Shown here piece after piece: positions 3,286 to 12,384 of a stretch of DNA of 39,172 nt (position 1 is its first letter; each line of letters begins with the position of its first letter). This stretch comes from Methanobacteriota archaeon (GTDB taxonomy: Archaea; Thermoplasmatota; Poseidoniia; Poseidoniales; Poseidoniaceae). Made by a program: the position numbers and the translations under genes. The notes beneath the pieces were generated by a model that was not told the origin of the DNA, did not search any database, and saw only the letters and a program-made list of their open reading frames with translations. The stretch is taken from NCBI GenBank assembly GCA_018701175.1, contig JABIWF010000029.1:1-39172 (forward strand), read 5' to 3'.

Positions 3286-4659
3286 ATGTCACTGGATAAT
3301 GTTAATCTCGACAGAGGTTTTTTTCATCTTACGAAACCCTACAAATGGTTCAACTGGATTTTTTGGATTGTAGGGTTCATTTTGGTCATTGCAGGAGCTG
3401 CCACGCTCAGTATCGAAGGCGGCGTTCTAGCAGCATTCGGATTCTTGGTGATAGCATTGTTTTCCCCTCCGTCTCTGGAGGCAGATTTGCATAAGGTTCG
3501 AAAAAATGCTCCTCAACCCGATGATTTAGAAGAGGCTGCATTGAAGAAGGGGTACGAACTTGAGTCGTGGTTCTTTGGCCGCTCATCGTACACTCCTACC
3601 GCTGATCCGAACGATTGGATACTTCCCGCACCTGGGCCATCGACTTGGAATCAAGACGATCGATACGCACCAGATGGAGATGGCTCCGCAATTCCAGAAC
3701 ACCCGAGTAAGGTTGGGACACCACAACCAGCCACGCTTTCGACATTTGGAGTTTGCATGGTCATGTTCATCATTCTTCTCTGTGTTTCAATCGGTTCAAT
3801 GATGGTAGATCAGCAAGCAGCCGTTGACAATGGCGAACTACTGGAAGAAGACGCAGGAATGAAGTATGCTCCCCTTGCAATCACGATTATCGGCTTCATA
3901 TGGCTTCTCCCCGGATTCTTCCAGCATAAGCGACAACAGCAAATGATCGACACGCCTACATCTCTGGTTCGTTCAGTGGCAGCCGGTTCAGCAGAACTGG
4001 TAGGTCAGGTACGGCCTGCACCAGAACAATGGATTAATGTGGTCGTTGATGGAAATCCCAACCGAATGATACCGGGCTGTGTTGATTTCAGATGGGAATA
4101 TGAAGTCTATGTGTGCCGTCAAGTGACCTCAACTGACTCGGAAGGAAACACAACGACCAGAGAAGAATGTAATTGGCAAAGTGTGCGCTCAGACAGCGGC
4201 TATGTCCCATTCATGCTTCATGATGGCACTGGAGGAATACGTGTAGAATCGGGTAGTTTCAGGAGAAAAGATCTTGGAAACTATGTCAAGATGTGGACTT
4301 CAAGCCATGCAGATACCCTACGCGACCACTTCCAAACTGAATTTGCTGCTCGCCTGTTTATGGATGGTGATGTTCGCAAGCACCGCTGGACTGCCTTCGC
4401 TCTGCGAATTGGCAACCCAGTCTACTTGTTGGGAATGGTCAAACCTCGGAGTAGAGCAGAATTAGATGCAGAACAGATCAACGGCACCGTCGGCCATACG
4501 ACGATTTCGGTTCATGGAGAAGATACTCCTGGCATGAAGGCAAACATTCAACGAGGTACAGAATTAGCCAACCTCGGTCGTATTCGTTCTTCTGCAGAAT
4601 TACTTATTATGCCAATTGTATGTGTTTTGTGCGGTATTGCGCTGTTCGCTCTTCTTTGA
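3286..4659 (+). CDS. GIDE-domain membrane protein without a RING finger
   Basis: A 457-residue membrane protein. Hydrophobic segments lie at about 21-41, 46-60, 152-173, 196-212 and 438-457. Between the fourth and fifth, residues 223-325 match the GIDE (BAM-like) domain of MUL1-type proteins. The cues are a T.LVRSVAAGSAELVGQV opening, a conserved cysteine in the middle strand region, a W..VRSDSGYVPF segment, then LHDGTGGIRV and a closing strand. Eukaryotic MUL1 adds a C-terminal RING ubiquitin ligase domain. None is present here and the protein ends with a membrane helix. Prokaryotic GIDE proteins are found near LemA-family genes, and a LemA gene lies about 9 kb downstream. Function unknown; a membrane stress or envelope role is only inference. 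Start: ATG at 3286 with TTTTACAG about 29 bases upstream. Confidence 0.8.
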   Translation: MSLDNVNLDRGFFHLTKPYKWFNWIFWIVGFILVIAGAATLSIEGGVLAAFGFLVIALFSPPSLEADLHKVRKNAPQPDDLEEAALKKGYELESWFFGRSSYTPTADPNDWILPAPGPSTWNQDDRYAPDGDGSAIPEHPSKVGTPQPATLSTFGVCMVMFIILLCVSIGSMMVDQQAAVDNGELLEEDAGMKYAPLAITIIGFIWLLPGFFQHKRQQQMIDTPTSLVRSVAAGSAELVGQVRPAPEQWINVVVDGNPNRMIPGCVDFRWEYEVYVCRQVTSTDSEGNTTTREECNWQSVRSDSGYVPFMLHDGTGGIRVESGSFRRKDLGNYVKMWTSSHADTLRDHFQTEFAARLFMDGDVRKHRWTAFALRIGNPVYLLGMVKPRSRAELDAEQINGTVGHTTISVHGEDTPGMKANIQRGTELANLGRIRSSAELLIMPIVCVLCGIALFALL

Positions 4660-4719: not shown

Positions 4720-5940
4720 ATGACCGAAGATGTCGTGATTATTGGCGGAGCAAGAACACCTTTTTGTGAATGGGTGGGCGGAAAGCGTGGCGATGGAAAG
4801 CAAGGCGGACTTTTGAAATCCTTGAGTGCACAATACCTCGGCGGAATTGCAATTCAGGCAGCTTTGGAAAAGACCGGTACCGATCCAGCCAAGGTTGACC
4901 ATGTCGTAATGGGATACGCTTTGCAAACCTGCTCGCAGTCAATCTATGGTGCTCGACACGCTGGTCTTCAAGGTGGAATCCCTCATGAAGTTCCAATGCT
5001 GACGCTGTCACGCATTTGCGGCTCTGGCGTTCAATCCATCGTTTCAGGGGCTCAAATGATCATGCTCGGAGAAGCATCAACTGTAGTCTCGGGTGGAATG
5101 GAAAACTTGAGTCAGGCACCTCACGTCATGCGTGGGGGACGTGAAGGATGGAAACTTGGCCGTTCACCAAAAGTTGAAGACTACATGATGACGAATCTAC
5201 AGGATATGACCTGTGGTTTGTTTATGGCGCAAACTTCCGATGAACTATGCAAGCGAAAGGGAGTCACTCGTGAAGAGATTGATGAATTTGCCGCACTTTC
5301 TCATGCCCGTACAACCGCCTCAATCGAAAACGATGTTTTCGAGCAGGAAATCGTTCCGGTCACGGTCAAGAGCCGCCGAAGTGAAACTGTGATTACCCAC
5401 AAGGATGAGGATCACGTAGTCAAAAATACGACTGCAGAGTCACTCTCTAAACTTCCAACTGCCTTTGGACCTGAGTCCTTTGTAACTGCTGGAAACGCTT
5501 CCGGAGTTGTCGACGGTGCTGCAGCCGTGGTCATCAAATCTGCTTCCCAAGCAAAGGCCGACGGGGACAAACCTCTTGCACGAATTGTGTCTTGGGGAAT
5601 TGTCGGTCTTGAACCAGCCATCATGGCTTACGGCCCTGTACCTTCATCTCGTAAAGCTCTTGAAAAAGCAGGTCTAACAACTTCGGATATTGACCGCTGG
5701 GAAATCAACGAAGCCTTTGCAGGACAAGCGGTTGCTTGCATCAAGGATTTGGAATTGGATGTAGAGAAAGTCAATGTCAACGGCGGTGCAGTCGGTCTTG
5801 GTCACCCTCTTGCAGCAACCGGGACACGTTTGGTGCTCACCCTCGCTCATGAATTGAAGCGTTGCGGTGGCCGTTACGGTGTTGCAACTGCTTGTATCGG
5901 TGGCGGTCAAGGAATCGCTATGGTCATCGAATCCATTTGA
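4720..5940 (+). CDS. thiolase family acetyl-CoA acetyltransferase
   Basis: A 406-residue classical thiolase, which condenses two acyl-CoA units or cleaves 3-ketoacyl-CoA. The three active-site blocks are intact. The nucleophile is C100 in SRICGSGVQS. The WEINEAFAGQ block follows, then GHPLAATGTR with H362 and the C-terminal ACIGGGQGIA with C392. The sequence is of the bacterial/organellar AtoB-FadA kind. It does not look like the archaeal thiolase that sits with HMG-CoA synthase and a DUF35 protein in mevalonate operons, and neither partner is next to it. A role in fatty-acid or ketoacyl-CoA breakdown is therefore as likely as isoprenoid synthesis. The ATG at 4720 has an AT-rich ATATTA about 29 bases upstream and no ribosome site, so the message may be leaderless. 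Confidence 0.92.
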   Translation: MTEDVVIIGGARTPFCEWVGGKRGDGKQGGLLKSLSAQYLGGIAIQAALEKTGTDPAKVDHVVMGYALQTCSQSIYGARHAGLQGGIPHEVPMLTLSRICGSGVQSIVSGAQMIMLGEASTVVSGGMENLSQAPHVMRGGREGWKLGRSPKVEDYMMTNLQDMTCGLFMAQTSDELCKRKGVTREEIDEFAALSHARTTASIENDVFEQEIVPVTVKSRRSETVITHKDEDHVVKNTTAESLSKLPTAFGPESFVTAGNASGVVDGAAAVVIKSASQAKADGDKPLARIVSWGIVGLEPAIMAYGPVPSSRKALEKAGLTTSDIDRWEINEAFAGQAVACIKDLELDVEKVNVNGGAVGLGHPLAATGTRLVLTLAHELKRCGGRYGVATACIGGGQGIAMVIESI

Positions 5941-6016: not shown

Positions 6017-8794
6017 ATGCTGAACCCTTTTACTTGGATGAGCAATGCAAGCGTTCAATCTCCAAAGAAAGCCTTTGGAATCGTCATGTTGATTGTTCTC
6101 CTCTTTTCAAGCGGAGCAATGCATCTTCAATTTGACAACAGTGAAGACGGTTTTTTCCCCGATGATGAGAATGTCCAATTGCTCAACCAACTTGAAGCAG
6201 AATACCAAGCCTCTGTTGACTTTGTAAGGGTAATCCGTGATGTTGAAGAAGGTGACTTGCTGGTAAATTCAACATGGTTGGAACTGGCAGAAATTGAAGC
6301 CTCAATGTTGGATAATGAAGATTTCAAACCTTTGCATTACCCGTTGTTTGGAACTCAAGCCAACAGTGGAATGGCAGGATATGCCATTCAGTGGCAACTC
6401 TGGCAATACGCAGAGAATGCTGACTGGATCCCGGTATTCCAATCTGCTCTTCTTGAGGTTCAAACCGCAAACAGTTCGCAACTGCAGAGCGCTCTAAGCA
6501 ACCTCTCAGCAGCCTCTCAATCCATGCCTCAAACAGGAGAAATAACTCCTGAGCAGATGCGAGCGTGGTCACCAGGTAATCCTTCAGAATGGTTGCCGCA
6601 TATAGATGAGGGCAACAACCTATCCGCAGAAATAGGCGCACTTATCGGACAGATGAACGGCCTGACAGCAAATCGTACTGCATCCGAATCCGGTCAAATT
6701 ATGGCTGTCACCGGTCCGCTTAACGGCCAACTCATCCCACTTTCATTCCTCCAAGATATCGATTACAGAGCCGCAATCTTGGGCTGTATGCCTGTCGCAG
6801 AACGAGAAGACCCTTGGAACATGAGTGGTCCAGTTCTTACCACGCTGGTCATCAGTACAGAACCTGCTGATTATGGCCACACTGTCCTGGATGATGTCCA
6901 GTTAGACATTGGAGACTGGTCTCAAACCATGCTTGACAACATGAGCGCCTCGACCGGAAACGAAGAACTTCGGACCTTTTCCTTCGCACAATTCGCACTT
7001 GGAGCAAACGGCAGCCTCGGCAAGGAAATCGGTATGCTGACCGGTGCAGCGATGCTCCTCTTGGCCGGGATTTTATGGCTGAACTTTAGAAGCGTCAGAG
7101 ACACCGCATATGTTACATTCCTAACCATCATTTCGATTGCAGCGACCTACGGAATCGCTGGTTGGTTGCAATTTATGGGAGTCAACATGGTGTTCAACGC
7201 TGCGATGAATTCAATTCCAGTCCTACTTTTGGCAATTGGTGTCGACTACGGTCTCCACGTCGTCCTTCGAATACGAGAAGAGATGCAAAATCTCGACTCA
7301 GAAGATTCTATAGAACGGAGAACTCTTGCTGATTTCTCACACGAGGCGCGCATGATTGCTGTTCGTCGTGGTACTGTTTTAACTTCGATTGCTCTTGTTA
7401 TAGCTATTTTCACAGACATGGTTGGATTCCTGTCGTTCAGATTTTCTGCACTTTCATTCCTGCAAGTGTTTGGTACAGTCATTGCCATCGGTTTGTTTGC
7501 CGTCTACCTGCTAAGTATCACTGCGTTACCAGCTCTCATGCTCATTTTCCCTCCGAAGAAACTGGCACTATCGAAAGCCAGCAAGATTTCCATCGGACGT
7601 GTTTCCTTGGCTTTGGGAAGATTGTCTACACAACCTGTAAAGGTCGGCGTTATCGCCTTGCTTTTGTTGACGCCGATGTATTTTGGATTCCAGCAATTGG
7701 AGGTTGGTTTCGACCAACGCGACCAGTTGGATCAAGAAATCCCAGTTGTTGTTGATTTCCTCATGTTGTCAGATGATTTCCAAAGCAGCCGTTCTCCGTT
7801 GTATTTGGTTGTTGATGTGGATGCAGTCTCACCCGAAGGTAAGGTTGCTTGGGATGCCGCACACGCGATGCTCATGGACAGCGAAGACGTAAGTGGGACT
7901 CCGAATGGGTTGTGGAATCTGCTGTCCGAAGCCCAAGTCAGAGATTCGACACTTAACGAATTAATGACCTCTCTCAATGCTTCTTCAACCGCATCTTACG
8001 ACGCGCTCTCAGACTACTTACTCACCAACGCCACTGGGCGTCAATTAACTGGAGCAGTTCTGGCTGCCGATGGTCAACAGACCGTTCTTTCCTTCCAAGC
8101 AGAGACGCTTGACTGGCAAGCAACTATCGATTTGTATGACCGTTTGAGCGCATCTACTCAAATCACGGAAGATTCACTTGACAGCGATGCGACCCTCCGT
8201 ATAGGAGGTCGTAGCCTCATCGTTGCACAAACAACATCCGATGTGGCTGAGTCAGCAGTACTCTCTACCTCCGTCGTTGCGTTCGTTATTCTCGGGATGC
8301 TCGTTGGAATCCACACCACTCGGCAAAAGGATATCAAGCAAGGTCTTGCACGAGGATTTGTCTCTTGGATTCCACTGATGATGGTTGTAGGGTGGGTATA
8401 CGGAATCATGGGTTACACCGGATATCAAATCAATGCACAAACGGTTACGATTGGAGCACTGTCTCTCGGTTTGGGTGTCGACTATGCCGTTCACTTCTCG
8501 ATACGCCTCGAAGAGGAAGTCGAACACCATCCAACTCATTCTCAAGAAGTTTGGGTGACCAATGCATCTGCCACGACCGGCCGGGCAATGTTCGCTGCAG
8601 CATTGACCACTGCTGGTGGATTTTCGGTGTTAAATCTCTCAGCTTTGCTACCATTGCGTCTCTTTGGCCAGGCGTTCGTCGTTGCCATCACGTTAGCATT
8701 ACTGTCGAGCATGATTCTTTTGCCAGCATTCTACACTCCATTCTTGAAGCAAGACGCAAAACGCATTGCCTTGGAACATTCTGAGGCGGAATAA
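6017..8794 (+). CDS. MMPL/RND family exporter (HAE3-like)
   Basis: A 925-residue RND-superfamily transporter expected to use an ion gradient to move hydrophobic or lipid cargo across the membrane. The architecture is the duplicated RND plan. Each half has one helix (the first at about 20-38), a large extracytoplasmic domain (about 40-340 and 560-740), and then a bundle of about five helices. Both halves carry the family core in the fourth helix of the bundle: GVDYG at 408-412 and GVDYA at 820-824. Length fits archaeal and bacterial MMPL/HAE3 proteins. The nearby TATA box fixes the start at 6017. Its stop overlaps the next start by one base (TAATG), so it is translationally coupled to an ABA4-like protein, and DUF2071 and DCC genes follow. 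The cargo is unknown. The neighbours suggest a lipid, pigment or membrane-maintenance role. Confidence 0.92.
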   Translation: MLNPFTWMSNASVQSPKKAFGIVMLIVLLFSSGAMHLQFDNSEDGFFPDDENVQLLNQLEAEYQASVDFVRVIRDVEEGDLLVNSTWLELAEIEASMLDNEDFKPLHYPLFGTQANSGMAGYAIQWQLWQYAENADWIPVFQSALLEVQTANSSQLQSALSNLSAASQSMPQTGEITPEQMRAWSPGNPSEWLPHIDEGNNLSAEIGALIGQMNGLTANRTASESGQIMAVTGPLNGQLIPLSFLQDIDYRAAILGCMPVAEREDPWNMSGPVLTTLVISTEPADYGHTVLDDVQLDIGDWSQTMLDNMSASTGNEELRTFSFAQFALGANGSLGKEIGMLTGAAMLLLAGILWLNFRSVRDTAYVTFLTIISIAATYGIAGWLQFMGVNMVFNAAMNSIPVLLLAIGVDYGLHVVLRIREEMQNLDSEDSIERRTLADFSHEARMIAVRRGTVLTSIALVIAIFTDMVGFLSFRFSALSFLQVFGTVIAIGLFAVYLLSITALPALMLIFPPKKLALSKASKISIGRVSLALGRLSTQPVKVGVIALLLLTPMYFGFQQLEVGFDQRDQLDQEIPVVVDFLMLSDDFQSSRSPLYLVVDVDAVSPEGKVAWDAAHAMLMDSEDVSGTPNGLWNLLSEAQVRDSTLNELMTSLNASSTASYDALSDYLLTNATGRQLTGAVLAADGQQTVLSFQAETLDWQATIDLYDRLSASTQITEDSLDSDATLRIGGRSLIVAQTTSDVAESAVLSTSVVAFVILGMLVGIHTTRQKDIKQGLARGFVSWIPLMMVVGWVYGIMGYTGYQINAQTVTIGALSLGLGVDYAVHFSIRLEEEVEHHPTHSQEVWVTNASATTGRAMFAAALTTAGGFSVLNLSALLPLRLFGQAFVVAITLALLSSMILLPAFYTPFLKQDAKRIALEHSEAE

Positions 8795-9261
8795 TGGATT
8801 CGCTCACCATTGGGCTGTTCTGGACCTCGTCATTGCTGATTTTCCCGTTTTGGTTTTTGATGTGGTTCATGCCAGGACATCACTTGACGAAGCGTTACGT
8901 TGGTGATGTACGATGGTGCATCGTTCCGTTACTTGTTTCATACACTGTTCTGGCACTGCCCAATGCTGCTGAAGTGCTGATGACCTTCGCCACACAGATG
9001 CCAACCCCCGAAATCGTAGTTGGCTTGTTTGAAGAAGATGAATTCGTCGTTTTGGCTTGGATGCATTTACTTGCACTCGATCTTTTTGCAGGGCGCTATG
9101 TTTGGCTTCGTATGCTCTCTGCAAAGAGGCCAATGTACGTGTCCACACCGATTCTCATCATGTGTATGATGATGGGTCCTCTTGGCTTCTTAATGGGGCT
9201 TTTTGCAACATGGAATGTTCTTTATCCAGAACCTCTTGAATCCGAAACTCTTTCTGAATAG
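8794..9261 (+). CDS. ABA4-like membrane protein (DUF4281)
   Basis: A 155-residue protein with four hydrophobic segments that matches the DUF4281/ABA4-like family. The cues are a LIFPFWFLMWFMPGH first helix region, an R.....PLLVSYTVL second helix, a central AWMHLLALDLFAGRYVW segment (conserved H and D), and a final GPLGFLMGL helix. Plant ABA4 is needed for neoxanthin formation from violaxanthin. Prokaryotic members have no established reaction. The start ATG shares its A with the stop of the MMPL gene, and a DUF2071 gene begins two bases after its stop, so co-expression is near certain. Marine Group II archaea often carry rhodopsin and carotenoid genes, so a pigment-linked function is possible, but nothing in this window makes retinal or carotenoid. 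Confidence 0.82.
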   Translation: MDSLTIGLFWTSSLLIFPFWFLMWFMPGHHLTKRYVGDVRWCIVPLLVSYTVLALPNAAEVLMTFATQMPTPEIVVGLFEEDEFVVLAWMHLLALDLFAGRYVWLRMLSAKRPMYVSTPILIMCMMMGPLGFLMGLFATWNVLYPEPLESETLSE

Positions 9262-9263
9262 TT

Positions 9264-10064
9264 ATGCAGGAAGGGATGGTTCAATACGGTACGCCTTCTC
9301 CGAGAATCATGGAAGCAAGGCATTCTTTGGATTGCAGCCACATTCCTTTTGCAATGCCTGAAGAAAAATGCACTTTGTATCAAAACTGGATACATTTGAC
9401 ATTCATGCATTGGGAAGTTGATGCCGTAAAGCTCGAATCTTATTTGCCAGAAGGAGTCGAAGTCGACTTTTTTGAAGGGCGTGCTTATGTTGGAGTCATT
9501 CCTTTTACCATGGAAAAGGTACGTCCCCGAATGCTTCCTTGGGTTCCCTTTGTTTCCACCTTCGGTGAATTTAACATTCGCACTTATGTCGTTAAGGATG
9601 GCATCCCAGGTGTTCTTTTCCTAACATTAGATGCGCAAAGTCGAATCACTTGTTTCCATGCTCCTCGATCGTATGGCCTGCCGTACAGACATGCGAAAGC
9701 AGTAGTCAAGGTTGCCGATGATGGAACCTATTCTTGGAACTCAGTTCGCTCAAATGGCGGTGAATCTTTGGTAGGTACTGCTCGTTCCTCCGGTGAAGTT
9801 CTTCAGGCGAAACCTGGGTCGCTTGAATATTTCTTATTTGAGCGGTACAGTCTTTACACCTCACATAAAGGTCGAGCGCACAGAGCCTATACACATCACC
9901 TGCCATGGGATTTTACAGTTGCTGAGGCTCAAGTCGAAGTAAACTCCCTCTTGGAGTCTTACAATCTCGGTATTGAAGATCCTCTGGCTCCTGAACACAT
10001 TCACATGAGTTCTGGTGTTGAGGTAAGCACATGGAGCGTCAATCCTCTTGAGGTGGCTCAATGA
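9264..10064 (+). CDS. DUF2071 (YqjF-like) protein
   Basis: A 266-residue protein of the DUF2071 family, which has an acetoacetate-decarboxylase-like fold. Family cues in order are an IHLTFMHWEVD opening (about residues 43-53), a YLPEGVEVDFFEGRAYVG strand pair, VIPFTMEKVRPR, then FGEFNIRTYV and PGVLFLTLDA. A later hairpin region has FERYSLYT followed by a His-rich stretch. No membrane helix is seen, so it should be soluble. The ATG at 9264 follows the DUF4281 stop by two bases, and alternative methionines at residues 5 and 16 cannot be excluded. The stop overlaps the next start by four bases (ATGA). The biochemical activity of the family is unknown. Confidence 0.85.
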   Translation: MQEGMVQYGTPSPRIMEARHSLDCSHIPFAMPEEKCTLYQNWIHLTFMHWEVDAVKLESYLPEGVEVDFFEGRAYVGVIPFTMEKVRPRMLPWVPFVSTFGEFNIRTYVVKDGIPGVLFLTLDAQSRITCFHAPRSYGLPYRHAKAVVKVADDGTYSWNSVRSNGGESLVGTARSSGEVLQAKPGSLEYFLFERYSLYTSHKGRAHRAYTHHLPWDFTVAEAQVEVNSLLESYNLGIEDPLAPEHIHMSSGVEVSTWSVNPLEVAQ

Positions 10065-10453
10065 GTGAGAAAGACACGCTTCTCATGGATGGCGATTGCG
10101 GACTTTGTACGCATACTGCTGTTTTTCTCCACCCTCGACTGAAGGACGTTCACTCCATTCGCTTCGTCGCTATTGAAACTCCAGAAGGGAAGGAATTAAT
10201 CTCGAACTTTCCTCAAAAGTTGAGAGATGCGGATACGGTCTATCTCATACGCAACGGTACCCCTTACATGCGTTCAGCCGCCGGTATACGGTTTCTACTC
10301 TACATGAAATGGTATTATTCGATGTGGTTTCCAGTTCTATGGCTTGTTCCATTACCGTTACGTAATGTTGCATACCGAATCATTGCCAAAAACCGCCATC
10401 GGGTATTCAAACGCCCAGCAACATGTGTCTTTCCTGGACTAAATATCGACTGA
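10061..10453 (+). CDS. DCC family thiol-disulfide oxidoreductase-like protein (DUF393)
   Basis: A 130-residue protein of the DCC (DUF393) family, named for the D-x-x-C-x-x-C motif. It is seen here as DGDCGLC, with D10, C13 and C16 in an expected thioredoxin-like first strand-turn. A second family block near the middle has a YLIRNGTPYMRSAAGIRFL pattern. A hydrophobic C-terminal half (around 85-105) may touch the membrane. The family is assumed to do thiol-disulfide exchange; no substrate is established. It overlaps the DUF2071 gene by ATGA and is the last member of the tightly packed exporter cassette. DCC and DUF2071 proteins both occur near lipid and membrane genes in bacteria, but the link is inference. 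Confidence 0.85.
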   Translation: MSEKDTLLMDGDCGLCTHTAVFLHPRLKDVHSIRFVAIETPEGKELISNFPQKLRDADTVYLIRNGTPYMRSAAGIRFLLYMKWYYSMWFPVLWLVPLPLRNVAYRIIAKNRHRVFKRPATCVFPGLNID

Positions 10454-10485: not shown

Positions 10486-12384
10486 ATGTCGCAGACATGG
10501 ATTATTGATTCAAACTGCTTTATCCACCTTGGTTCAATGGCTCCTGACACCTTCATTCGTGATCTCAAAAAAGTTCTATCGGGACACAAACACTCCCTTT
10601 TTGTGACGACAGGAGTTCACGGTGAGATTCAAAATGTCAGATTTCAACGATGGTCGAAGAAACCTAAAGTTTTGGACGAATTTATGCCGTTGATGACGAC
10701 CGTGACCGTTGATGAGAATCAAGTGAAAGGTCTTGCTCAACTTATCGGAGAAAAAGCGTCACCACAAGATGTTGACCTTTCATTGATGGTTTTGGCTTCT
10801 AAAATGACTCGAGAGGGCGAGAATGTAATTCTCGTAACTGATGATTTCAAGATGACCACTACGGGTGAAAAAGCAAACTTGGGTTACGAAACATGCCCAC
10901 CTTCGACATTCATCCAACGTCTCGCTTCGCTTAGTGGTTCGAAGAATAAAGGCCGTATGAAGAGTCTTTCGCGAAGGGTTCGGGCGGCAGAGATGAGATA
11001 CGCAATCAGTCGCGTTCACCAATACGATATTCAGGCGAAATTGACATGGATGGTTGATTCTTTGATAGAAGACAGGCCGCAGGTTCAGAGGAGGTCAACA
11101 CCAGAATCAGGTGAGATGAATCTCAAAATTGCCCTCCAACGGACTCTTGCAGGAGAAGACATCAAAGGAAAGTATACCAAAAGGCTTGGAGCCTTGCCTG
11201 AGATTTGTAAGCCAATACTTTCACTCGATACTCACATTTCTCAGTTGACTTCGACCAACACTTCAGAAGATTTACTCGAAGCATATCAAGAGACATTGCT
11301 GATGATGAGTGAAGTTCTCGAAGCGATTGGCCTTGATTTGGCTCCTCTCGACGAAACGGCGGCAGAAATAGCTCACAGTGCGTTAAGTGCGTACCTTTAC
11401 CGCTCAGAAACGGCTCTTGGTCTCATGGCTAAAATGTCTGGTAAAAGAGACACTGCTCGGCTTCATCTTTCTCGTGCACTCCAATCTGCGACATTGATTG
11501 ATGATTCATTTGCTGAAATGCACGCCGTTTATCAATTGGGGCTTTTAGCAATGGCTTCCGGTAAATGGGAGCGTTCAGCTCGGCTGTTTGAAACTGCAGA
11601 AATGCAAGCTCAATCGATTTCAGCATATCGCTTACCGTACTTAGTCTGCTCCGGAATTTCACGCCACTTGAGTGATGATGAAGAAACAGCACAGAAGCAT
11701 ATTTTGTTGGCAAACCAGCTGGTGGCCGAGGACAAGCAGAAAGCCTCGGTCGTTTTGATGAAACTTGGTGAAGCCCTGCTGGCAATTGACCAACCCGGTT
11801 TAGCACTGGAAGTTCTGGACGAGGCAATGGAATGTACGCTGGAGACTGGTTCTCAAGAGCAGTTGGAAACCCTTGCGGAGCATATTCTCATGGCAAATGC
11901 CGCAATGACGCACGATGACATTATTCAACATGAAGGGCTACGGACACTTCTTGATGGTTTGAATCAATTAACTGAACTTGAAGCTGAAGAGTTTGCAAAG
12001 AAGATACAGGTGATTGAGAAGCGGGCCGACGAGCATACATTGCCTCTTGAAGAAACTTGGAACGACTGGCAAGCAGCAACGAAACTTATCCCACAAGATG
12101 CTACTCTGAAAGTGGTACGCGCTGAAGTCGATGAAAATCAAGATACATTGGTGGTCGTCCATCACAATGAACTTGGCTCAATTGGGATTTGGCTACCTCA
12201 CGGAGAATGGAATGTATCTTCTGGACACTTGCTATCAATCGGAGACACTCGCGTCAAACTGGCATCACCTACCGAAGAACTTCAAGAAAAACACAGTCTT
12301 CGTGGGTTGGTTGCCGTCGAAGATTCATCAAAACTCATGTTCAAAGCACCAAGTGAAGGCCTTATGTTCGAATCTGAAGATTAG
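10486..12384 (+). CDS. PIN-domain nuclease fused to TPR-like helical repeats
   Basis: A 632-residue protein with two parts. Residues 3-150 look like a PIN nuclease domain. D8 sits in WIIDSNCFI, E47 in TGVHGEIQN, D97 in PQDVDLSLMVLA and D119/D120 in VILVTDD, together giving a complete metal-binding acid set. From about residue 290 to 480 there are repeated amphipathic helix pairs of TPR type (LGLLAMASGKWERSARLFE is one). A beta-rich C-terminal stretch of about 75 residues closes the protein (around 555-632). PIN domains with this acid set cleave RNA, as in VapC, Nob1 and SMG6. The TPR part should bind a partner. No antitoxin gene adjoins it, so it is not an ordinary VapBC toxin. The ATG at 10486 directly precedes the first PIN strand. 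Its stop overlaps the TauE stop (TTAG). Confidence 0.8.
   Translation: MSQTWIIDSNCFIHLGSMAPDTFIRDLKKVLSGHKHSLFVTTGVHGEIQNVRFQRWSKKPKVLDEFMPLMTTVTVDENQVKGLAQLIGEKASPQDVDLSLMVLASKMTREGENVILVTDDFKMTTTGEKANLGYETCPPSTFIQRLASLSGSKNKGRMKSLSRRVRAAEMRYAISRVHQYDIQAKLTWMVDSLIEDRPQVQRRSTPESGEMNLKIALQRTLAGEDIKGKYTKRLGALPEICKPILSLDTHISQLTSTNTSEDLLEAYQETLLMMSEVLEAIGLDLAPLDETAAEIAHSALSAYLYRSETALGLMAKMSGKRDTARLHLSRALQSATLIDDSFAEMHAVYQLGLLAMASGKWERSARLFETAEMQAQSISAYRLPYLVCSGISRHLSDDEETAQKHILLANQLVAEDKQKASVVLMKLGEALLAIDQPGLALEVLDEAMECTLETGSQEQLETLAEHILMANAAMTHDDIIQHEGLRTLLDGLNQLTELEAEEFAKKIQVIEKRADEHTLPLEETWNDWQAATKLIPQDATLKVVRAEVDENQDTLVVVHHNELGSIGIWLPHGEWNVSSGHLLSIGDTRVKLASPTEELQEKHSLRGLVAVEDSSKLMFKAPSEGLMFESED

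Follow-up and report, generated by a model that had tools for sequence, protein, structure and literature searches.

The stretch of DNA analysed here (the window: 39,172 nucleotides of contig JABIWF010000029.1, assembly GCA_018701175.1) comes from a metagenome-assembled genome (MAG) of the order Poseidoniales (Marine Group II, MG-II; family Poseidoniaceae), 1.9 Mb in size and 86% complete. Between positions 6017 and 10453 it carries a cassette of four + strand genes that encode, in order, an MMPL/RND transporter, an ABA4-like membrane protein, a DUF2071 protein, and a DCC-type thiol-disulfide protein. An earlier reading, made from the sequence alone (the sequence-only reading), had named these genes, the stretch that they occupy and their families, and all of the open reading frames were recovered with Pfam scores above cut-off: 80.3 bits against 20.5, over two stretches, for the transporter; 86.8 against 27, covering model positions 2-125 of 127, for the ABA4-like protein; 193.8 against 27 for DUF2071; and 65.2 against 27.8 for DCC. 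A scan of the window’s + strand for four 7-mers gave a single match, the clear TATA box that this reading had reported, and relatives with upstream DNA carry a TATA element at about the same distance 5’ of the MMPL start, the remaining spacer having diverged. Tight junctions had also been described; those reading TAATG and ATGA are present, but the two-base junction ahead of the DUF2071 gene is doubtful, because the conserved start of its relatives (M-x-A-x-H-x-L-D-C-S-H-I-P-F) aligns at an internal ATG and residues 1-18 of the structural model have a predicted local distance difference test (pLDDT) score below 50, so that the gap is probably 47 bases (Table 1).

Table 1. Features of the cassette and its flanks, in window coordinates
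Feature	Position	Strand	Remarks
TATA box TATATAA	5988..5994	+	22 bases from box end to MMPL ATG; transcript predicted leaderless or near-leaderless
MMPL/RND transporter, 925 aa	6017..8794	+	HAE3-like, sterol-sensing/Patched-like transmembrane region; PF03176 1.7e-22, Patched 1.4e-06
ABA4-like membrane protein, 155 aa	8794..9261	+	Class A; PF14108 2e-24
DUF2071 protein	9264..10064	+	Acetoacetate-decarboxylase-like fold; likely true start 9309; PF09844 3.9e-57
DCC1-like thiol-disulfide protein, 130 aa	10061..10453	+	Motif DGDCGLC; PF04134 1.6e-17
PIN/TPR-like gene	10486..12384	+	3’ of cassette in genus, possible operon continuation; 32-base gap after DCC
Thiolase	4720..5940	+	5’ of cassette, syntenic in genus, probably separate unit; 76-base gap contains TATA box

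ABA4-like genes were located across 146 genomes of the order, sampled in two families (f1 and f2), and gene neighbourhoods of 18 kb were read. In 52 of 118 places an ABA4-like gene lies directly 3’ of a CrtI-family desaturase gene, on the same strand and at a distance of 31-1419 bp, and family f2 has this arrangement in 42 of its 42 places. The adjoining desaturase at locus L046 passes the phytoene desaturase model TIGR02734 with 481.9 bits against a cut-off of 238.1, many ABA4-like loci are adjoined by CrtB-like genes of the SQS_PSY family, and three genomes (G113, G037, G066) have the ABA4-like gene immediately 3’ of blh within retinal-type clusters. Besides this FAD desaturase and the squalene/phytoene synthase, the recurring neighbours are an ABC1 kinase, a photolyase-like protein, RibA, an AhpC-type protein, and a TrmB-type regulator. 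Phylogenetic analysis firmly splits the archaeal ABA4-like proteins into two clades, A, which includes the protein of the window and occurs in f1 only (support 99/99), and B, which occurs in both families (100/100). Members of both clades can take the position behind crtI, those of class B widely and those of class A in genus g9 (L005, L010, L013, L115). Beyond the order, confident matches in a 293-genome sample of the phylum were confined to Poseidoniales; in two genomes of the Anaerolineae (Chloroflexota) a CrtD-like desaturase (TIGR02733, 5.8e-113) is followed after 18-34 bp by an ABA4-like gene. No description of a linkage between ABA4-like and carotenoid genes was found in the literature searched.

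The distribution of these genes among genomes follows the same pattern, as judged by tests that ignore phylogeny and MAG incompleteness. ABA4-like and CrtI occur together in 96 genomes, with 4 holding ABA4 only, 17 CrtI only and 29 neither (odds ratio 41); for rhodopsin the corresponding figures are 84, 16, 11 and 35 (odds ratio 16.7, p 2.6e-12). At the genus level, 15 genera have both ABA4 and rhodopsin, none has ABA4 only, one (g14) has rhodopsin only, and 5 have neither (p 2.9e-4). Some of the absences are contig breaks, as in G040, where the crtI match extends, 3’-ward, to the beginning of the contig. The sequence-only reading had guessed at a pigment and had named co-occurrence with rhodopsin and carotenoid genes as a check; that guess is favoured both by the linkage, in relatives, of ABA4-like genes with crtI, crtB and blh and by the distribution that they share with CrtI and rhodopsin, and an involvement of ABA4-like proteins in carotenoid metabolism in Poseidoniales is likely.

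The ABA4-like protein of the cassette (ABA4-A) is predicted to be a small helical membrane protein (model pLDDT 92.7), and neither a sequence search of the PDB nor a Foldseek search with the model yielded a match (best E 1.7, to SdhD, with a TM-score of 0.38). Residues P18, W20, M23, P27, P45, W89, H91, D96, W104 and P129 are invariant in clades A and B and R106 is nearly so; H91 and D96, which lie on a long helix (82-109), are natural candidates for an acid/base pair. An apparently decayed ABA4-like copy, with two in-frame TAG codons, was seen behind crtI in one genome (G045:C37:5048-5434, L088), which also has a second, intact copy.

These observations are consistent with the cassette being a carotenoid/isoprenoid pigment module of one Poseidoniaceae genus, in which ABA4-A would act as an integral-membrane, carotenoid-transforming protein, probably without a cofactor. 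Its substrate would be the C40 product of CrtB and CrtI encoded elsewhere in the genome, and the reaction most likely a redox-neutral acid/base rearrangement, either a cis-trans or an end-group isomerisation, that would employ the H91/D96 pair and R106 on the long helix; the co-transcribed MMPL protein could then move the resulting carotenoid, or an isoprenoid akin to it, across the single membrane or within it. The DUF2071-DCC pair would be a separate module, combining an acetoacetate decarboxylase (ADC) fold with a thiol-disulfide protein, that joined the operon in this genus, with DCC possibly in the thiol-redox role that c4, a lipoprotein of thioredoxin-like type, may have in sister genera. 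We infer the substrate, the reaction, the transport step and the union of modules, and to the whole statement, membrane carotenoid isomerisation of the ABA4 type coupled to movement of the product by MMPL, we assign a probability of about one half.

Several observations weigh against this proposal. The fold search of the PDB gave ABA4-A no match from which a catalytic mechanism could be drawn. In the genus of the window (g1) no carotenoid gene lies next to ABA4-A or MMPL, and therefore the carotenoid link of this locus runs through homologues. Only 2 of about 36 sampled bacterial ABA4-like loci have a carotenoid neighbour, TetR regulators being the commonest, so that the family may have other roles and a general carotenoid linkage of the bacterial genes is not supported. 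Genus g14 has no ABA4-like gene (0/8 genomes) yet holds CrtI in 5/8 and rhodopsin in 2/8, and looks like a true exception to the co-occurrence. DUF2071-DCC is located away from ABA4 or MMPL in many genomes. Finally, the scores of the MMPL protein point to no particular cargo: it stays far below all of the substrate-specific NCBIfam cut-offs tried (38 against 1100 for HpnN, 25.7 against 1400 for BstA, and 24 against 1400 for MmpL3), and against HAE3 (TIGR00921) it reaches 149 bits, also under the cut-off of 351.9.

How far the four genes belong together can be judged from the spread of their order. The full MMPL-ABA4-DUF2071-DCC arrangement is present in 13 genomes of the window’s genus, including the single-contig G002, as well as on further named Poseidoniaceae contigs, and was not found outside that genus in the 146 genomes. 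The sequence-only reading had suggested that conservation be checked in MG-IIa and MG-IIb, and that an order unique to this genome, or families that nowhere else co-occur, would speak against it; neither was found, and recurrence in at least 13 genomes rules out a chance neighbourhood in one MAG. Conservation holds within the genus and not across MG-IIa and MG-IIb, the MG-IIb loci that were read having only DUF2071-DCC and crtI-ABA4 pairs. Where MMPL is missing (G022, G053 and relatives), ABA4-DUF2071 is retained, and so is DCC where the contig extends that far. MMPL lies 5’ of class A ABA4 in 43 of 57 distinct loci and the pair is Poseidoniaceae-wide; outside the genus the two genes are either adjacent or, in genus g2 (whose contigs are labelled Poseidonia sp.), arranged as MMPL-c25-c4-ABA4, c25 being an additional membrane protein family. 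DUF2071-DCC, in turn, is a separate pair present throughout the order, in both families and in varied contexts. In the cassette two modules of wider distribution, MMPL-ABA4 and DUF2071-DCC, are joined at the level of one genus, and for this reason the claim of the sequence-only reading that tight coupling points to one process for all four genes is only weakly supported.

The alternative that fares best is that the two modules are unrelated and merely share a promoter in one genus, without a process in which all four genes take part. It accords well with the many genomes in which each pair stands alone, and we consider it a serious, if tentative, possibility; nevertheless, the genus keeps the four-gene order and its tight junctions even where protein identity falls to about 50-60%, and ABA4 is joined by a thiol-redox protein in either arrangement. 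The latter point involves c4, an unnamed lipoprotein family that has no Pfam match (L041:8609-9214, L046:8143-8706, L083:6690-7310), has CxGC together with a TP motif of the kind usual in thioredoxin-like folds, and gives weak PDB matches to disulfide isomerases. This family is common to MMPL-ABA4 and crtI loci: in g3 and several f2 genera it separates crtI from ABA4, and in g1 it stands beside crtI. The unnamed family c25 (L041:8027-8566, L197, L198, L208), for which no Pfam or NCBIfam match was obtained, is found between MMPL and c4 in g2, beside crtI in g14, and beside ABA4-B in g8. A thiol-redox partner would thus accompany ABA4 in the cassette (as DCC) and in the sister operons (as c4).

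The roles of DUF2071 and DCC themselves can be suggested from fold and motif. The DUF2071 model matches enzymes of the ADC fold (best Foldseek E 5.8e-12, to MppR/ADC, with TM-scores of 0.58-0.64, and 24 ADC-type chains at E<=0.001), a fold noted earlier for PF09844, where the invariant Schiff-base lysine was reported to be missing (PMC4520260). In agreement, no column that is invariant or nearly so in 28 aligned archaeal DUF2071 sequences holds a lysine, so that the Schiff-base lysine of ADC has no invariant counterpart and an ordinary acetoacetate decarboxylase is ruled out. In DCC, residues D10, G11, C13, G14, L15 and C16 are invariant and D12 nearly so in 20 sequences, which fits the pattern D-x-D-C-x-x-C. 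In all five genomes of genus g20 DUF2071-DCC lies 1.3-2.7 kb from a rhodopsin gene (L175-L178, from G056, G128, G114 and G083; in G134 it is the DUF2071 gene).

A second alternative is that the compound handled is a membrane lipid other than a carotenoid, such as an isoprenoid ether lipid, a polyprenol or a squalene-type compound, which MMPL would export and ABA4-A modify, the crtI linkage of the paralogues reflecting shared isoprenoid chemistry only. Transporters of hopanoids, sterols and mycolates are among the relatives of MMPL, and the window’s protein, whose putative exporter role is drawn from its family, shares with HpnN, BstA and MmpL3 the overall architecture and a similarity in the transmembrane halves, with weak matches to the structures of MmpL3, MmpL4 and MmpL5. 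The genome of the window (G000) also has, besides a crtB-like gene, two divergently oriented SQS_PSY-family genes side by side (L076:7829-10334, on G000:C94), the larger of which matches HpnD and HpnC best and could belong to a squalene-type pathway; that the g1 cassette lies apart from crt genes agrees with this alternative as well. The presence of class A itself behind crtI in g9, and the association of the g2 operon’s c4 and c25 with crtI, nonetheless make it doubtful.

The remaining alternative concerns retinal. Rhodopsin is present in 95 of the 146 genomes, Blh (PF15461) in 14, with strong CrtY matches confined to about the same 14, and CrtYcd (PF18916) and RPE65 (PF03055) in none, which makes ABA4-like proteins candidates for an unassigned pigment step. 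In G000 itself, at 86% completeness, no Blh, CrtYcd or RPE65 was detected (a CruA-type cyclase was not tested), and only weak PF05834 matches, of about 30 bits at best, were obtained for CrtY. Known carotene cleavage enzymes have several histidine metal ligands. ABA4-like, the membrane gene that repeatedly follows crtI where blh is lacking, could supply the missing late step, lycopene cyclisation and/or carotene cleavage, through class B behind crtI or blh and class A in the cassette, and most MG-II genomes have no annotated beta-carotene 15,15’-monooxygenase (Tully 2019, PMC6336850). This is nevertheless unlikely, since ABA4-B stands behind blh in three crtY-containing clusters where such a role would be redundant, g14 has rhodopsin and neither ABA4 nor Blh, some genomes with ABA4 and CrtI have no rhodopsin match, the ABA4-like alignment holds one invariant histidine only, and MG-II may import retinal. 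The clusters with both blh and crtY favour instead an additional, isomerase-like role, of the kind postulated for plant ABA4 (PMC8151144), over a simple replacement of either enzyme.

In comparison with the canonical crtB-crtI-crtY-blh retinal cluster, which ABA4-B sometimes adjoins and with which rhodopsin co-occurs, most MG-II genomes are without crtY and blh, and the crtI-(c4)-ABA4 arrangement is foreign to it. A bacterial-type crtB-crtY-blh cluster, in several cases with a second CrtI, occurs in about 14 scattered MG-II genomes (L080, L054, L081, L090, L091-L094), which suggests horizontal acquisition beside a resident crtI. A blh-less actinobacterium makes retinal by an unknown route, and MG-II is among the rhodopsin holders without blh (PMC7734400); in one MG-IIb genus, transcripts of phytoene desaturase drop in dark incubation (PMC9723583). 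For the window’s genome, a carotenoid-antenna rhodopsin finds no support, an alignment reading giving Leu and not Gly at the GPR F152 position.

Plant ABA4, associated with neoxanthin/cis-violaxanthin synthesis, has in common with the archaeal proteins the PF14108 family, a small multi-helix membrane architecture and a carotenoid context. Its substrate differs, being an epoxyxanthophyll; around those archaeal copies that were read, neither an epoxidase nor a xanthophyll gene was noticed. Furthermore, the sequence-only reading had taken neoxanthin synthesis by plant ABA4 as established, which is too strong: according to reviews its enzymatic activity is not established (PMC8770946, PMC8151144), and a participation in trans-to-cis isomerisation of violaxanthin has been postulated (PMC8151144). 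A bolder possibility, which we hold to be rather improbable, is that ABA4-like proteins form a class of prokaryotic carotenoid enzymes so far overlooked and, with CrtI, complete pigment (possibly retinal) synthesis in most rhodopsin-bearing, Blh-less MG-II, the cassette being a derived copy with a dedicated MMPL carotenoid transporter. In the sunlit ocean MG-II belong to the commonest archaea, and a majority of their genomes have rhodopsin and no recognised retinal route (PMC6336850; PMC7734400); small archaeal ABA4-like proteins beside crtI would make both the question of this route and that of the plant ABA4 reaction testable in carotenoid-producing E. coli.

Some further features of the carotenoid loci and of the flanks of the cassette were recorded. 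A light-related block of photolyase-like, RibA, AhpC/TSA, TrmB-like, ABC1 kinase and crtI genes recurs order-wide (L046, L062, L065, L071, L195, L200, L204). CrtI matches in G050:C41, G103:C22, G032:C2 and G028:C6 contain or abut one in-frame TGA, which may reflect pathway decay, a match running past the stop, or an assembly error. Downstream of DCC, the PIN/TPR-like gene is also found in g1 relatives with DNA on that side, so that the 3’ end of the unit is not sharp, and transcription may extend beyond the four genes. A GIDE-like (E3-ligase-like) gene lies 5’ of the thiolase at 3286-4656, and in some genomes of the genus (L034, L096, L099) it is tandem-duplicated, with a second copy only about 27% alike.

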